In this document: positions 19,158 to 24,749 of the stretch, piece after piece
Layout: each line of letters begins with the position of its first letter
Numbering within the stretch: the stretch's first letter is position 1
NCBI RefSeq assembly: GCF_003611635.1
Contig: NZ_RAVZ01000040.1
Location: 1-40,214 of the forward strand
DNA from: Corallococcus terminator
Lineage (GTDB): Bacteria; Myxococcota; Myxococcia; Myxococcales; Myxococcaceae
Length of the DNA: 40,214 bases
Direction of reading: 5' to 3'
The notes under the pieces: model-generated
The model's input: only the letters and a program-made list of their open reading frames with translations
Database searches by the model: none
Told to the model about the DNA's origin: nothing
Position numbers and translations under genes: made by a program

Positions 19158-19862
19158 TTACTGGACGGCGCGGAGACCCGACTGCTCTTCCGTTGCGTCG
19201 CTCAGCTCCGTCAGGAGCCGATCACCCTCGGTCTCGTCGATGGGAACGAAGCGGCCGAGGTCAGAGCGGTAGGCGTGAACCTGTGCCGCCCCGATGTCGA
19301 ACCACCAGCCGTGCAGCCGCAGCGTCCCCGCCGCGAGCCGCTCTTGCACGATGGGGTAGGTCTTCAGGTGCTCGAGCTGCTCGAGGACGTTCAACTGGGA
19401 GAGGCGATCCGCATCGGGCAGCCCCACGCCCACCTGGGTGTTCTCCTTCAACGCCTTGAGCGAGGGCGTTCCGTGCGCGAGCCACTTCTCCAGGTTCGGT
19501 GAGCCGTTCACGACGCCTCCGGCCAAGATCGCCTTCATCGCGCCGCAGCTCGAGTGTCCGCAGACAACGACGTCCTCGATGGGCAGGAAGCCCAGGGAGA
19601 ATTCGATCGCCGCCGCTTCCGAGCGGTCCGCCGTGGGCTGTCCGTTGAGCACGGCCGTCGGAACGAGGTTGCCCACGTTGCGCACGGTGAAGAGGTCACC
19701 GGGGTCCGTGGAGACGAGCAGATTGGGCACCACGCGGCTGTCCGAGCAACTGATGAAGAGACAGTCAGGGGTTTGCCCCTTCGCGAGCCTCGCGAAGGTC
19801 GCCCGGTACGAGGGCAGGGTATGACGCTGGAAATCGAGCAGACCTCTAATGAGCTTCTTCAC
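19158..19862 (-). CDS. Beta-class carbonic anhydrase
   Basis: A 234-residue zinc enzyme interconverting CO2 and bicarbonate. The beta-class ligands are visible: CSDSR (C39, with the D41/R43 dyad) and CGHSSCG (H103, C106). Other conserved parts are FTVRNVGN, AAIEFSLGFLPIEDVVV and, near the C-terminus, LRLHGWWFDIGAA. The length fits the family and there is no signal peptide, so it is cytosolic. The GTG start (19862-19860) has GGAGG 7 bases upstream and overlaps the stop of the SulP gene as GTGA, showing translational coupling. Next to a SulP transporter, the natural role is hydrating CO2 or trapping imported bicarbonate. It is probably expressed from the sigma-54 promoter at 21496-21510. Confidence 0.95.
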   Translation of the reverse strand: MKKLIRGLLDFQRHTLPSYRATFARLAKGQTPDCLFISCSDSRVVPNLLVSTDPGDLFTVRNVGNLVPTAVLNGQPTADRSEAAAIEFSLGFLPIEDVVVCGHSSCGAMKAILAGGVVNGSPNLEKWLAHGTPSLKALKENTQVGVGLPDADRLSQLNVLEQLEHLKTYPIVQERLAAGTLRLHGWWFDIGAAQVHAYRSDLGRFVPIDETEGDRLLTELSDATEEQSGLRAVQ

Positions 19863-21433
19863 TGAGCACCTCCGGGAGCGAGAGACGAAACGTGATGAGC
19901 CGAGGATGAAGGGGGTAGAACAGCAGCAGGCCCGGCAGCGAGGGCCGCACGCGCGCCCCGCCGACTCCAGACGTCCTCGAGCGGCTCCATGGTCACGGTG
20001 CCGCCCGTCTTGCGATGCGTGTCAGCCCAGCTCTCCAGCGCCTCGAAGCCGGAGTGGTCGAGCATGTTCACCGCCACGTCCACCTCCACCTTGGAGCCCG
20101 AGGGAACCTTCGCGAGCGCCGCCGACAGCTTCGGCACGCCGACGAACGTCAGCGCTCCGCTGATGCAGACCTGGTGAACACCATTGGTGGCGTGGCTCTC
20201 CACGCGCACCTGGCCGAGCTGCCACAGGAGCCGGAGGATGGCCGCGCCGAGCCCCAGACCGATGCCCGCGAGCAGGTTGATGCCCACGACACCGGCCACG
20301 GTGATGAGGTAGACCGGCAGCTCGCCCCGGTGCCGGAGCTCCCGGATGTGGGCGAGGTTCACGAGCTTCAGGCCCACGTGCACGAGCAGGCCGGCGAGCA
20401 CCGTCAGGGGCACGAAGGCCGCGAGGCTCCCCAACAGGGTGATGAACGCGAGCATCCACACCGCGTGAAGCACCGCCGACCAGCGCGTCTTCGCGCCGGC
20501 GTTGATGTTCGCCGCGCTGCGCACGATGACGCCGGTGATGGGCAGACCGCCGACCAGACCGGAGAGGGTGTTCGCCACGCCCTGCGCGAGCAGCTCGCGA
20601 TCGAGGTTCGCCCGCGCGCCCGTGTGGAGCTTGTCGGTCGCCACCGCGCTCAAGAGCGATTCGGCACTCGCCACGAGGGCGAGCGACAGCACGGCCACGA
20701 AGAAGGCACCCCACGCGGCCCCTTCCGGAAGGGAAGGCAGCTTGATGGCCGACAGCGCATCCGCGGCCAACTGCACCCGTGCCACGTTCGCGTTCAACAC
20801 CGCCGCGACCGCGGATCCGCCCACGACCGCCACCAGCGGCCCCGGGACCTTCTTCAGCCGCCCGTTCGGCAGGAACTGCCACGCGATGAGGATTCCCAGC
20901 GTGAGCAGGCCCAGCAGCGTGGCCGGTCCATGAAGGTCGGCAATCTGCCCGGGCAGCTCCCGCAGGTTGTTCCAGGCATTGCTCTGCGGAGAGCCACCCA
21001 GAACGATGTGGACCTGACCCAGCACGATGAGAATGCCGATACCCGCGAGCATTCCGTGGATCACGGCCGGCGAGATGGCGAGCGCCGAACGCGCCACCTT
21101 CAGCACGCCGAGCGCCACTTGCACGAGCCCCGCCACGGCGATCGCCGCGCACGTCACGGCGAAGCCCAGCTCCTGGATGAAGCCAAAGACCATCACCGCG
21201 AGGCCCGCCGCGGGGCCGCTCACGAGAAGCGGCACGCCGCCCATCAGGCCCACCACCACGCCTCCCACGACGCCGGCGATGAGTCCCGCCATGATGGGCG
21301 CTCCGGAGGCGAGCGCGATGCCCATACAGAGGGGCAGGGCCACCAGGAACACCACCAGCGAAGCCGGCAAATCCGAGGCGAGGATCTCCTTCAACGAGGG
21401 CCTCGCCTCTGCAGCTTTTCCACCCGAAGTCAT
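19859..21433 (-). CDS. SulP family anion transporter with STAS domain (likely bicarbonate)
   Basis: A 524-residue membrane transporter. Residues 15-400 hold about 10-14 hydrophobic helices with SulP features: ASLVVFLVALPLCMGIALASG, GLIAGVVGGVVVGLMGG, SGPAAGLAV, and GGLPITGVIVRSAANINAGA. A C-terminal STAS domain (about 420-495) has VCISGALTFVG and NMLDHSGFEAL. SulP proteins carry sulfate, bicarbonate or other anions; the 4-base coupling to a carbonic anhydrase argues for bicarbonate, as in BicA-like systems, though sulfate cannot be excluded from sequence. ATG 21433 has GGGGAG upstream. The gene lies 182 bases after the NtrC-type regulator and is preceded by a perfect sigma-54 element. Confidence 0.92.
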   Translation of the reverse strand: MTSGGKAAEARPSLKEILASDLPASLVVFLVALPLCMGIALASGAPIMAGLIAGVVGGVVVGLMGGVPLLVSGPAAGLAVMVFGFIQELGFAVTCAAIAVAGLVQVALGVLKVARSALAISPAVIHGMLAGIGILIVLGQVHIVLGGSPQSNAWNNLRELPGQIADLHGPATLLGLLTLGILIAWQFLPNGRLKKVPGPLVAVVGGSAVAAVLNANVARVQLAADALSAIKLPSLPEGAAWGAFFVAVLSLALVASAESLLSAVATDKLHTGARANLDRELLAQGVANTLSGLVGGLPITGVIVRSAANINAGAKTRWSAVLHAVWMLAFITLLGSLAAFVPLTVLAGLLVHVGLKLVNLAHIRELRHRGELPVYLITVAGVVGINLLAGIGLGLGAAILRLLWQLGQVRVESHATNGVHQVCISGALTFVGVPKLSAALAKVPSGSKVEVDVAVNMLDHSGFEALESWADTHRKTGGTVTMEPLEDVWSRRGARAALAAGPAAVLPPSSSAHHVSSLAPGGAQ

Positions 21434-21495
21434 TGCTTGCGCTCCCCTGTCATCTGCCGACCCGCACAAGGGATCGACGTGACAGGCGGGACTAC

Positions 21496-21510
21496 GCAAG
21501 CGTTGTGCCA
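21496..21510 (-). promoter_or_regulatory. Sigma-54 promoter of the sulP-carbonic anhydrase operon
   Basis: Read on the minus strand, bases 21510-21496 are TGGCACAACGCTTGC. This matches the sigma-54 consensus TGGCAC-N5-TTGC exactly, with the invariant GG at 21509-21508 and GC at 21497-21496. The implied transcription start is near 21484, leaving a 5' UTR of about 50 bases before the SulP ATG at 21433. The gene immediately upstream encodes a sigma-54 activator, which makes a chance match unlikely. Confidence 0.85.
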
Positions 21511-21560: not shown

Positions 21561-21616
21561 GATGAAAGAAACTTGAAGCCCGCGACTCAGGCGATGAAAG
21601 ACTTTTTAAGTCCTTC
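21561..21616 (-). promoter_or_regulatory. Candidate activator-binding sites (UAS) for the NtrC-type regulator
   Basis: An 18-base motif occurs twice, GATGAAAGAAACTTGAAG at 21561-21578 and GATGAAAGACTTTTTAAG at 21593-21610 (14 of 18 identical). The spacing is 32 bp, about three helical turns. The second copy extends into a near-palindrome, GAAAGACTT (21596-21604) with AAGTCCTTC (21608-21616), 8 of 9 paired. They lie about 78-132 bases upstream of the predicted start site, the usual place for sigma-54 enhancer sites. The palindrome touches the regulator's stop codon and could instead be its terminator. Confidence 0.5.
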
Positions 21617-22967
21617 ACTCCGAGGGTGGGTTCTCCTCCAGGCGGCGGAGAAATGTCGGATAGGACAGGCCCAGGACGCGGGCCGCCTCCATGCGCCTGC
21701 CTCCGAGCTGCTCGAGCACGTGCCGGACATAGAGTCGCTCCACTTCATCGAGCGGCCGAGGTGGGCCTGACACGGAGAAGGCGTTGGGGTCGACCGAGGC
21801 CGGCGCGCCGCCTCCCTTGGCGAGCGACTGCAGCTCGAGCGCGGGCCCGCCTTCGAGCACGAGCGCTCGCTCGAGCACGTTGCGCAGCTCCCGGACATTG
21901 CCGGGGAAGGGATAGCTCAGCAGGCGCTCCTCCGCGGCGGGAGAGAATGGGACCGGGCGTCGACCCAGCTCCGAGCAGAGCTCCAGCACGAGCGTCCGTG
22001 CGAGCGGCAACACATCCTCGCGACGCTCGCGCAAGGGAGGCACCTCCACCCGGAACACGCTGAGCCGGAAGAGGAGGTCCTCGCGAAAGCGCCCGGCGGC
22101 GACCTCCGCTTCGAGGTCCTTGTTGGTGGCTGCCACGATCCGGGCGGTGCTCGTGAGCTCCGTCGTGCCACCGAGTCGTCGGAAGGCACCCTTGTCGAGA
22201 AACGTGAGCAGCTTGGCCTGGAGCGCGAACGGCAGCTCACCCACCTCGTCGAGAAAGAGGAGCCCGTCGCTCGCGAGTTCCACGAGCCCGCGCCTTGCCG
22301 TCTTCGCATCCGTGAAAGCGCCGCGCTCGTGTCCGAAGAGCTCGCTCTCCATCATCGTGTCCGGAAGCGCGGCGCAGTTGATCTGCACGAAGGCCCCCTG
22401 CTTCTGGCGCAAGGCGTGGAGATGGCGGGCGAGCACCGCCTTCCCGGTCCCGGTCTCCCCCAGCAGCAGGACGGGACTGCGCGGAGTGGTGGCGATCCGC
22501 TCCAGCATCTCGAGGGTTTGCTGCATCGCCGGCGAGCGAGGCTCCGCCATCCGATGCTGACCTTCGAGGACGCTCTCGGCCTGGCGCAGCCGTTCCTGGA
22601 GCTGGAGGTCGCTTGCCGCGCGGCGTGCGCGCATCACCAGGTCGTCAATCTCGACCGGCTTGCTCAGGTAGTCGCGAGCCCCTGCCCGGATGGCTTCGAC
22701 AGCGCTCTCGATATCGCCGTGCGCGGTCACCATCAGCACGACGGTCGCCGGAAGCTGGGCACGCAGCTCGGGCAGGAAGACGAGCCCATCTCCGTCCGGC
22801 AGCCTTCGATCCAGCACGACGAGGTCAGGCGCCTCGGCGGCGAGCGCGGCGCGGGTCTCATGCAGCGAGCGGGCAACCCGGACGCGGAAACCTTCCTGGC
22901 TCAGCATGGATGCCGCGAGCGAGGAGAAGGTCCTGTCGTCATCGACGAGCAGCAGGGAGGTGCTCAT
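21615..22967 (-). CDS. NtrC-family sigma-54-dependent response regulator
   Basis: A 450-residue activator. Receiver domain (1-115): acidic D9-D11, phospho-acceptor D53 (VVLDRRLPDGDG), T81 and K103. AAA+ domain (about 142-370): Walker A GETGTGK (170-176), sigma-54 contact loop ESELFGHERGAFTDA (216-221; Asp replaces the second Gly of GAFTGA), Walker B LLFLDEVGEL, and R-finger region FREDLLFRL. The C-terminal Fis-type helix-turn-helix (about 410-445) includes RRMEAARVLGLSYPTFLRRL. ATG 22967 overlaps the kinase stop as ATGA, so the pair is coupled. The nearest sigma-54 promoter is 105 bases downstream of its stop and drives sulP and carbonic anhydrase, the probable targets. Confidence 0.95.
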   Translation of the reverse strand: MSTSLLLVDDDRTFSSLAASMLSQEGFRVRVARSLHETRAALAAEAPDLVVLDRRLPDGDGLVFLPELRAQLPATVVLMVTAHGDIESAVEAIRAGARDYLSKPVEIDDLVMRARRAASDLQLQERLRQAESVLEGQHRMAEPRSPAMQQTLEMLERIATTPRSPVLLLGETGTGKAVLARHLHALRQKQGAFVQINCAALPDTMMESELFGHERGAFTDAKTARRGLVELASDGLLFLDEVGELPFALQAKLLTFLDKGAFRRLGGTTELTSTARIVAATNKDLEAEVAAGRFREDLLFRLSVFRVEVPPLRERREDVLPLARTLVLELCSELGRRPVPFSPAAEERLLSYPFPGNVRELRNVLERALVLEGGPALELQSLAKGGGAPASVDPNAFSVSGPPRPLDEVERLYVRHVLEQLGGRRMEAARVLGLSYPTFLRRLEENPPSE

Positions 22968-24634
22968 GACGCCATCTTCTCGAGCGGAAGGCGGACCGTG
23001 AAGCGGCTGCCTCCGGGCACGCGAGTGTAGGAAACACTTCCTCCATCATGCGCACGGATGGCCGTGCGCACCATCGGAAGCCCGAGTCCGATCCCCTTCG
23101 ACCGACCCACCGCGAATGGCTCCCAGAGCCGCGGCTCGAAGGCCGGGGGCACTCCTCCGGCGTTGTCCTCCACGACGAGCACCACCTCTCCGCCTTCGCG
23201 AAGGAGCCGGACCTCGACGCGAGGAGTGGGCTGCTGGCCTATATCATGGGCCACGGCGCCGGCTTCGACGGCGTTGCGCATGAGGTTGTCGACCGCGGAG
23301 ACCAGCAGCGTCGGGTCCCCCTTCACGAAGAGCCCCTCCTGCAGCGTGGTCTCGATGGCGACATCCGCTGCTTCCGGCAGGAGCCTCACGGCTTGAAGCG
23401 CGTCCTGGACGAGCAGGTGCATCTCACAACTGCGCCGCTGCGTGGACTGGGGGGAAGCGAAGCTCAGCAATGAGCGGGCAAGGTGGCCGAGCCGGTCCGC
23501 CTGGGAACGCAGCGCCTGGACGGGCAATGTCGTCTCCCCTCCCTTCGCGCGAATCATGCTGAGCGCGGCCTGCATGCTGTTGAGCGCGTTCTTCACCTCG
23601 TGGGCGATGAGCGAGGAGGCCGTACCGAGCGCCGCCATCGTCTCCTGGCGCCGCAATTGTTCCTCGGCTGCCACCAGCGAACGGTAGGAGCGACGCAGGA
23701 GCACCGTGAAGAGCAGGAGCACGCCGCCGAACAGCGCGGTGTGAAAGCCAAGCTGGCCGAGGTAGCGGCGCTTGAGCATCTCCCGGTCCCGCGCCTCGTC
23801 CTCGAGCACGGCGAGCAGCATGCCGGCTCCGGGAACGAGCGCCGCTGCGCCGAGCAGCCGCGTGCCTCCGAGCGTTACGGCCCCGGGAGCGTCCACCAGC
23901 GGGCGAAGGCGCGAGGCGAGCTCCGGCTGGCGCAGCAGTGGCGGGGGCGTTGCCGGCAGGAGGAGCCGACCGCGCTCGCCTAGCAGGGCGATCATGGACT
24001 CGTTCGTCCCGCGAGGGGTCGTCGGTAGCAGCTCGTTCGCCGTGGCGAGTTCGCCCACGAGGAGGCCCACGACACGCTCGTCGCGCACGATGGGGACCGC
24101 GACCGCGACGAGCCCTCCGCCTTCCTCGTCCAGCAGTCCGACCGAAGCGACCCGCTCTTCCACCATCCGCCGGAACCACAGGCGCGAGGCGAGCGGTGTG
24201 CGTCCGAGCGGCATGTCCACCGGGTCGCTCCACATGCGCGTGCCGTTCGAGGACACCAGCGCGACTCCCGCCGAGAAGAGAGACGTGTGGCGGAAGGCAT
24301 TCTCGAGGAGCGCTACCTCCAGTCCCGCGACGCCATCCTCGGGTCTGAGCGACGGGTGCTCCGCGAGCCGTTGCAGCTCCGAGCGCAGCAGCCCGAGGTG
24401 TGCGCCAAGTGCCTGGGCCTGGAGGCCCGCGCGGTCCGACAGGTGAGCGAGCAGTTCGCCCTCCGCCGCCTGCACGTCCTCCTGGTAGGCCACGAAGGGG
24501 ATCACGAAGGCGGCGCCCCAGAGGAGCATCAGACCGACCACGGCGGACCGGCCCGCTTTTCTCTGCGTGCGAAGAAGATCGCCCGGTGGGGGAACGAGAG
24601 AGGTCAGGGAGGGATGGGCCGGAGGCGACGACAT
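22964..24634 (-). CDS. Sensor histidine kinase with extracytoplasmic (Cache-like) domain
   Basis: A 556-residue membrane sensor kinase. TM1 is about residues 32-50 (GRSAVVGLMLLWGAAFVIPF). A large periplasmic domain (about 55-290) includes FSAGVALVSSNGTRMWSD and VAVAVPIVRDERVVGLLVG, features of a double Cache sensor. TM2 is about 300-322 (FHTALFGGVLLLFTVLLRR). H box is LIAHEVKNALNSMQ (H345), N box DNLMRNAVEAG, then VEDNAGGVP and GIGLGLPMV (ATP binding). The 4-base overlap with the response regulator fixes them as a pair. The ligand is unknown; because the target operon handles CO2/bicarbonate, a small carboxylate or bicarbonate-linked signal is a reasonable inference. ATG 24634 is favoured over an upstream frame extension because the sequence before it is not conserved-looking. 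Confidence 0.93.
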   Translation of the reverse strand: MSSPPAHPSLTSLVPPPGDLLRTQRKAGRSAVVGLMLLWGAAFVIPFVAYQEDVQAAEGELLAHLSDRAGLQAQALGAHLGLLRSELQRLAEHPSLRPEDGVAGLEVALLENAFRHTSLFSAGVALVSSNGTRMWSDPVDMPLGRTPLASRLWFRRMVEERVASVGLLDEEGGGLVAVAVPIVRDERVVGLLVGELATANELLPTTPRGTNESMIALLGERGRLLLPATPPPLLRQPELASRLRPLVDAPGAVTLGGTRLLGAAALVPGAGMLLAVLEDEARDREMLKRRYLGQLGFHTALFGGVLLLFTVLLRRSYRSLVAAEEQLRRQETMAALGTASSLIAHEVKNALNSMQAALSMIRAKGGETTLPVQALRSQADRLGHLARSLLSFASPQSTQRRSCEMHLLVQDALQAVRLLPEAADVAIETTLQEGLFVKGDPTLLVSAVDNLMRNAVEAGAVAHDIGQQPTPRVEVRLLREGGEVVLVVEDNAGGVPPAFEPRLWEPFAVGRSKGIGLGLPMVRTAIRAHDGGSVSYTRVPGGSRFTVRLPLEKMAS

Positions 24635-24749
24635 GCGCCTATCATCAACACATTTCGACCCGCACGGCAGTCGCTCATGGAGTTCCCGCGAGCGCGCCAA
24701 GACGGAGGAGGACCTGCCGCAGTCCCCCTCCGCCCCCAGCGCCTCCGCT

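Follow-up and report, generated by a model that had tools for sequence, protein, structure and literature searches.

What governs the expression of a SulP transporter gene and the carbonic anhydrase gene coupled to it, when both lie directly downstream of a two-component regulatory pair, is the question raised by a locus of the heterotrophic predator Corallococcus terminator, found on contig NZ_RAVZ01000040.1 within a 40,214-nucleotide stretch that was analysed as a whole (hereafter the window). To our knowledge, the control of bicarbonate and CO2 supply in heterotrophs has been little studied. An initial annotation of the window had proposed that a sigma-54 promoter connects the two gene pairs and that bicarbonate import and CO2 hydration are switched through it by an extracytoplasmic signal.

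Organization of the locus

The four genes are listed below, all positions being those of the window.

22964-24634, minus strand: sensor histidine kinase (Pfam HisKA and HATPase_c)
21615-22967, minus strand: NtrC-type response regulator with receiver, AAA+ (GAFTDA) and Fis-type helix-turn-helix parts (Pfam Response_reg, Sigma54_activat and HTH_8)
19859-21433, minus strand: SulP-family anion transporter of 524 residues (Pfam Sulfate_transp, E 7.5e-68; best PDB match 6ki1)
19158-19862, minus strand: beta-carbonic anhydrase of 234 residues with a GTG start (Pfam Pro_CA, E 3.6e-44; CSDSRV at 39, CGHSSCGA at 101)

Both the coordinates and the Pfam domains bear out the gene context described initially, that is, a coupled kinase/NtrC-regulator pair followed by a coupled SulP/carbonic anhydrase pair: the kinase stop (22964) overlaps the regulator start (22967) in ATGA, the sulP stop (19859) overlaps the carbonic anhydrase start (19862) in GTGA, and a 181-bp gap, read on the minus strand, separates the regulator stop (22967-21615) from the SulP ATG (21433). 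For the kinase, the ATG at 24634 was taken as the start over the mechanical TTG start at 24700. The receiver, Sigma54_activat AAA+ and Fis-type helix-turn-helix domains of the regulator all score above their Pfam cut-offs, which makes it a member of the NtrC type.

A SulP search of named genomes yielded 24 loci, in 22 of which kinase, regulator, SulP and carbonic anhydrase genes follow each other in identical order and strand; the remaining two (L027 and L032, left out when counting these 22) are a locus of a Bdellovibrionales MAG at 49% identity and a 44-residue fragment. One of the records carrying the locus (L029, BNCN01000006.1) is titled Comamonas sp. KCTC 72670 and is probably misnamed, since its regulator groups with Myxococcus in the tree.

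An S46 peptidase gene lies directly upstream of the kinase in the window (26825-24750, minus strand) and was found by similarity in 3 of the 24 fetched loci, some of which stop short of that position. About 1.2 kb past the carbonic anhydrase gene there is a cyclase-like open reading frame (17965-17219, minus strand; Guanylate_cyc, E 3.2e-07), a relative of which occupies the matching place in 5 of 9 Corallococcus-group loci; no relative turned up in the remaining 17 myxobacterial loci, some of which stop shortly past the carbonic anhydrase gene.

The predicted sigma-54 promoter and its conservation

21496-21510, minus strand: predicted sigma-54 promoter element TGGCACAACGCTTGC (GG at 21509-21508, GC at 21497-21496)
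21484, minus strand: predicted transcription start, 12 nt past the C of the -12 GC, deduced from the promoter position

The exact sigma-54 consensus match claimed for the minus strand is indeed present at 21510-21496, where TGGCACAACGCTTGC is the one place in the window to fit TGGCACN5TTGC without a mismatch, with GG and GC 10 bp apart at -24/-12 in the TGGCAC-N5-TTGC-like context of a sigma-54 promoter. The start that had been expected near 21484 agrees with the position predicted when the C of the GC is placed at -12. The genome gave a single match to the DNA-binding domain of sigma-54. No sigma-70-like match was found in the regulator-sulP gap, such scans being weak in GC-rich genomes.

The match is thus real but weak when taken by itself: the strict pattern has 13 matches across the 10.35-Mb genome, with no enrichment over the 18 obtained for a reversed-pattern control, and it was rejected as stand-alone evidence. 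Looser matches are uninformative, since 36 places in the window fit TGGCACN5TTGC with up to two mismatches and 49 are expected in shuffles. The chance of a strict match on the correct strand of a 181-bp gap is about 1e-4, by arithmetic from 13 matches in 2 x 10.35 Mb.

It is conservation, not the consensus match, that convinces us of the predicted promoter. Orthologs of the regulator (at least 74% identity) and of SulP (at least 72%) occur in an identical set of 54 out of 145 genomes of the order; the two genes are adjacent in the 53 genomes with both gap ends in one stretch, and by coordinates in the remaining one (G119). These 54 genomes are kin, belonging to five genera of one family, and the 22 fetched loci are not independent of them because the two sets overlap. 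Within the five genera the pair is missing from three genomes, namely G081, G082 and G120 (2 of 7 and 1 of 27 in two genera), and the regulator match of G043, a member of the set of 54, breaks off at residue 396, before the DNA-binding end. The GG/GC core is kept in all 54 orthologous gaps, 51 of them reading NGGCACN5TTGC and three NGGCATN5TTGC (L151, being another stretch from the same genome as L092, was left out of the gap set).

As a control, a pattern of the same 6+4 shape was slid along the window gap, 168 positions in all, and scored in the 54 gaps. The promoter ranks first of the 168, being found with up to one mismatch in 51 of 54 gaps as against a median of 8 for the patterns, and second comes an upstream dyad (the proximal site described below), found in 50 of 54 at the same tolerance. 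Both are still the top two in the 38 gaps from outside the genus of the window, with 36 and 35 gaps, respectively. Conservation of the element and of the four-gene order had been named beforehand as a check on the proposal, and both have held, with the core retained in 54/54 gaps and the order in 22/24 loci.

Candidate activator sites in the gap

21561-21578, minus strand: proximal candidate activator site CTTCAAGTTTCTTTCATC, dyad score at least 10/12 in 54 of 54 gaps
21593-21610, minus strand: distal candidate activator site CTTAAAAAGTCTTTCATC, here 32 bp from its proximal counterpart, dyad score at least 10/12 in 53 of 53 testable gaps

Scores of at least 10/12 are reached by 1.0% (proximal) and 0.4% (distal) of letter-shuffled gaps; the gap sequence of L092 is short and gave no distal-site reading, leaving 53 testable gaps. 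These scores are partly circular, as these very sequences supplied the dyad pattern, and the near-fixed distances are less so: the spacing between the 17-bp dyads is 30-33 bp in 48 of 53 gaps and 43-44 bp in the other 5, and the proximal dyad centre and the promoter element are 59-63 bp apart in 50 of 54 gaps and 72 bp apart in 4. Both distances thus jump by roughly one helix turn, which would suit a protein confined to one face of the DNA.

Throughout the 10.35-Mb genome, CTTNAAN4CTTTCATC occurs exactly at two places only, both in the window gap, and with one mismatch at two more, one of them (C235) in the gap behind the closest paralog of the regulator and the other on C399; with up to two mismatches it occurs at 33 places, compared with 13 in a reversed control. 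A wider regulon reaching to C399 was considered and rejected, the site there being taken as a chance one because the nearest sigma-54-like match (up to two mismatches) is about 570 bp off. The perfect dyad CTTCAAN5TTGAAG has a single exact place in the genome, in the gap of the paralog. The sulP-carbonic anhydrase pair is perhaps the single target of the regulator. The paired candidate sites, which the initial annotation had missed, strengthen the reading of this gap as a switch beyond what had been put forward from the promoter.

The sensor domain of the kinase

23759-24499, minus strand: predicted periplasmic dCache sensor domain of the kinase (model pLDDT 83.6, pTM 0.81; fold matches)

The sensor domain was folded alone because the catalytic part took over the fold matches of the full-length kinase model, which was discarded for this purpose. 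The best VIA-align match of the sensor model is the PctA LBD (5ltx_A; Z 16.0, rmsd 3.4, 222 aligned), and alignments with KinD (Z 15.6, rmsd 3.1, 189-190 aligned) and DctB (Z 14.2, rmsd 3.2, 210 aligned) are close to it; L175 was left out of the structure alignments. The dCache_1 family was found in 27 of 28 sensor domains, the window copy scoring 22.7 bits, below the Pfam curated cut-off of 45. Since dCache folds rank first, the model indicates that the kinase carries a double-Cache extracytoplasmic domain, and the extracytoplasmic sensor assumed initially is in keeping with both the fold ranking and the family matches.

As for the ligand, alignment with PctC (E 0.0037) matches an R-x-W-F motif of the sensor to R-x-W-Y; the R of this motif is present in 17 of 17 SulP-linked kinases versus 58% of 12 paralog kinases, and its W and F in all of both. 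In dCache domains for amino acids, the R and W of R-x-W presumably bind the carboxyl group; the motif match taken together with this role makes a carboxylate-like ligand plausible, bicarbonate being one option. The solved dCache domains that match best are binders of amino acids, pyruvate and dicarboxylates, and as amino-acid, pyruvate and succinate binders rank close together (Z 13-16 among the best 50 matches), the fold does not decide the ligand.

The transporter and the carbonic anhydrase

With 229.5 bits against a Sulfate_transp cut-off of 23.2, the transporter belongs to the SulP / SLC26 family. Its best PDB match, 6ki1 (E 1.6e-37), is deposited as 'Low affinity sulfate transporter' and is taken here to be BicA; the transporter scores 152.2 bits against the NCBIfam equivalog cut-off of 880 for BicA (NF050096) and was for this reason not filed under that name. 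Residues E258 and S262 align with a D and a T of 6ki1, which presumably are D258 and T262 of the sodium-binding site of BicA. Glutamate at the position equivalent to BicA D258 is usual in proton-coupled SulP relatives, and our guess, because E258 stands where BicA has its sodium-site aspartate, is that the transporter may be proton-coupled. The second protein contains CxDxR and HxxC motifs (within CSDSRV and CGHSSCGA), which we take to be the zinc motifs of beta-carbonic anhydrases, and Pro_CA scores above its cut-off; it is classed accordingly.

A possible hairpin was noted in the leader of sulP.

21447-21485, minus strand: possible hairpin reaching the ribosome-binding site, from 10 Corallococcus-group leaders (window and L009-L017)

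In these leaders 95.7% of 140 cells are paired and 2 of 14 pairs are changed on both sides, a double-change count also reached in 46 of 500 shuffles, so that support for the hairpin is modest. The sulP leaders of other genera fold too, with different sequences.

A second SulP gene of the genome (C333; L212, G000:C333 1054-5911) is divergent to another NtrC-type kinase-regulator pair. The gap between them has no sigma-54 core with up to one mismatch, TGGCAC being present without the -12 GC, and it was therefore not counted as a second case. Among SulP genes of 40-52% identity found elsewhere in the order, a carbonic anhydrase gene stands alongside in 2 of 8 regions, both without a regulator match, and one other of the 8 regions has a weak partial regulator match.

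A paralogous metal-efflux module

The closest regulator in the genome is 68% identical to that of the window (66-68% for the regulators of the paralogous modules in this genome and its relatives) and precedes genes for an outer-membrane efflux protein, a CzcB/CusB-type RND adaptor and a CusA/CzcA-family pump, the latter scoring 994.7 bits against a cut-off of 701.45; the pump was typed in the genome of the window, and in L178 it was recognized as one of RND type. The paralog gap of the window's genome holds GGGCACACGGCTTGC as well as dyads. NGGCACN5TTGC was found in 8 of 16 paralog gaps (7 of the 8 from the window's own genus) and is lacking in 4, a further 4 being not parsed, and a relative of the efflux protein is encoded in 11 of the 16 loci, in 9 of them no more than about 400 bp from the regulator. 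In L178 the paralog gap after 5830 shows the dyads TGAAAGCCCCTTTCA and TGAAAACAACTTTCA ahead of the outer-membrane efflux gene, with no sigma-54-like element by the pattern used.

In the regulator tree, in which long outgroup branches were flagged, a branch (89/95) sets off the SulP-linked regulators and another (61/84) the paralogs. When the window kinase is compared with the efflux-type kinases, the sensor part is 28-32% and the catalytic part 45-52% identical. Of 46 genera, 14 contain paralogs of 60-68% identity and 5 the SulP-linked pair. The unit made up of kinase, regulator, sites and promoter is related to, and probably copied from, a CzcCBA-type efflux control unit, the direction of copying being suggested by these genus counts, and in this regulator family the DNA-binding code appears to be retained through changes of sensor and target operon.

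The proposed circuit and its alternatives

We consider it very probable, judging from sequence comparison, that the four genes form one local switch running from kinase to regulator to sigma-54 promoter to sulP and the carbonic anhydrase gene. Because the promoter is conserved and the dyads are specific to the locus, a dedicated local regulator probably activates the operon through sigma-54. The membrane kinase would read a small ligand outside the cell by means of its dCache domain and, as the domains and the gene overlap suggest, would pass phosphate to the neighbouring NtrC-type regulator; once phosphorylated, the regulator may bind the two dyads, which are about three helical turns apart and centred near -86 and -118. 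The assembled regulator could then remodel sigma-54 polymerase at -24/-12, a step for which sites, spacing and promoter are indicated by conservation, and sulP and the carbonic anhydrase gene would be transcribed together. To go by family and gene pairing, SulP most likely moves bicarbonate, which the beta-carbonic anhydrase would interconvert with CO2 inside the cell, and bicarbonate or CO2 might serve carboxylation needs or pH balance.

Inorganic-carbon supply is, with slightly better than even probability, the purpose of this circuit. That inorganic carbon should also be its signal appears unlikely, and we are just as doubtful that the kinase reads external inorganic carbon (as bicarbonate, a linked carboxylate or a pH cue), which would make the locus a sigma-54 on-switch for carbon supply copied from a metal-efflux unit, with the DNA code kept and sensor and cargo changed. 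Of the initial interpretation, the sigma-54 promoter before the sulP-carbonic anhydrase operon with its adjacent regulator (in 54 genomes) and the extracytoplasmic sensor have stood, and the bicarbonate part is carried here at the lower strength just given.

A little short of an even chance is given to the circuit being real and serving something else, in which case the input would be a metal, an amino acid or another carboxylate, and SulP and the carbonic anhydrase would act in ion or acid balance or on another anion. A purpose other than carbon would suit the nearest paralogous system, which precedes a CusA/CzcA-type efflux operon, and another anion would suit the SulP family, whose transporters act on a variety of compounds according to the text available for PMC10880623; against this, sulP is followed immediately by the carbonic anhydrase gene in all 22 myxobacterial loci fetched, which favours bicarbonate, and sulP/can2 transcripts of Acidithiobacillus ferrooxidans drop as CO2 rises, as described in the accessible part of PMC6458275. 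A non-carbon input accords with the ligands of the best-matching solved dCache domains, with the PctC-like motif whose R is invariant in the SulP-linked kinases, and with the divergence of the sensor from those of efflux-type kinases relative to the catalytic part.

Far less probable are two readings that dispense with activation through sigma-54. Were the operon served by read-through from the kinase-regulator genes or by an unseen housekeeping promoter, the sigma-54 match would be due to chance, as the 13 strict genome matches versus 18 in the reversed control would allow; we hold this to be very improbable, given a core kept in 54/54 gaps and a promoter ranking 1/168, and, in the case of the housekeeping promoter, given a gap without a sigma-70-like match (a scan weak in GC-rich genomes). 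Slighter still is the probability that the regulator works with sigma-70 or as a repressor, a reading prompted by its GAFTGA loop, where all 22 fetched myxobacterial loci have GAFTDA instead, a departure that the initial annotation had not noted. Contact with sigma-54 can be lost when this motif is altered, but the available sections of the same source (PMC3162934) place a G5 to D change in FlgR among experimentally validated activators, a functional precedent for GAFTDA; the loop is also GAFTDA in L003 of the window's genome and in the paralog L002, whose gap has a sigma-54-like element.

Comparison with known systems

No system in which an NtrC-type pair and a sigma-54 promoter precede sulP and a carbonic anhydrase gene was met with in the literature searched, among the matches listed and in the text available for PMC10880623, PMC12628692 and PMC6458275 among them, and the initial annotation had likewise known of none. 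The locus is present in Myxococcus xanthus strain AM003 (L020), and the M. xanthus literature, as far as titles and abstract openings among the matches listed go, has nothing on a sulP-carbonic anhydrase operon. In A. ferrooxidans, as here, sulP lies beside a beta-carbonic anhydrase gene (can2), with predicted bicarbonate transport and CO2-dependent transcripts; that organism differs in being an autotroph, and the available text on sulP-can2 does not mention an NtrC-type pair or a sigma-54 promoter (PMC6458275).

In conclusion, sequence conservation lends good support to the promoter and its adjacent activator, and carbon supply is the likeliest use of the circuit, by somewhat more than an even chance. 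The circuit is compact and testable: its promoter and candidate activator sites are named, and it perhaps has a single target. At least 27 NtrC-like response regulators are present in M. xanthus, going by the accessible part of PMC6211767. Many of these regulators are without a known target, and reading regulator, dyads and neighbouring genes together may decode more of them.

Three regulatory systems resemble that of the window. The paralogous HK-RR-CzcCBA module is alike in its regulator (66-68%), its GGGCACN5TTGC element and its related gap dyads, and differs in its CusA/CzcA-type RND efflux target and in a sensor that is 28-32% identical. The CorSR system of M. xanthus likewise has a periplasmic sensor kinase and a sigma-54-dependent response regulator beside the genes that they control, but has copper-handling targets and corSR inside its own controlled operon, according to the available description (PMC3707914), from which the likeness is drawn. 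In the NmpR regulon of M. xanthus, as far as the available text goes (PMC11841059, in the main text of which the words 'carbonic' and 'SulP' are absent), an NtrC-like response regulator, two dyads with a 5-bp spacer and a sigma-54 promoter are combined as in the window locus; there, however, the dyad is GCGCA-N5-TGCGC, the phosphorelay is linked to oxygen and several operons are targeted. The preferred distance between NmpR sites is 14-15 bp, and that of the window locus is 15 bp (32 bp between the centres of 17-bp sites). Gel shifts and reporters described for NmpR in the same text showed that expression depends on the promoter-near site and the sigma-54 site and reaches its full level only with the far site.
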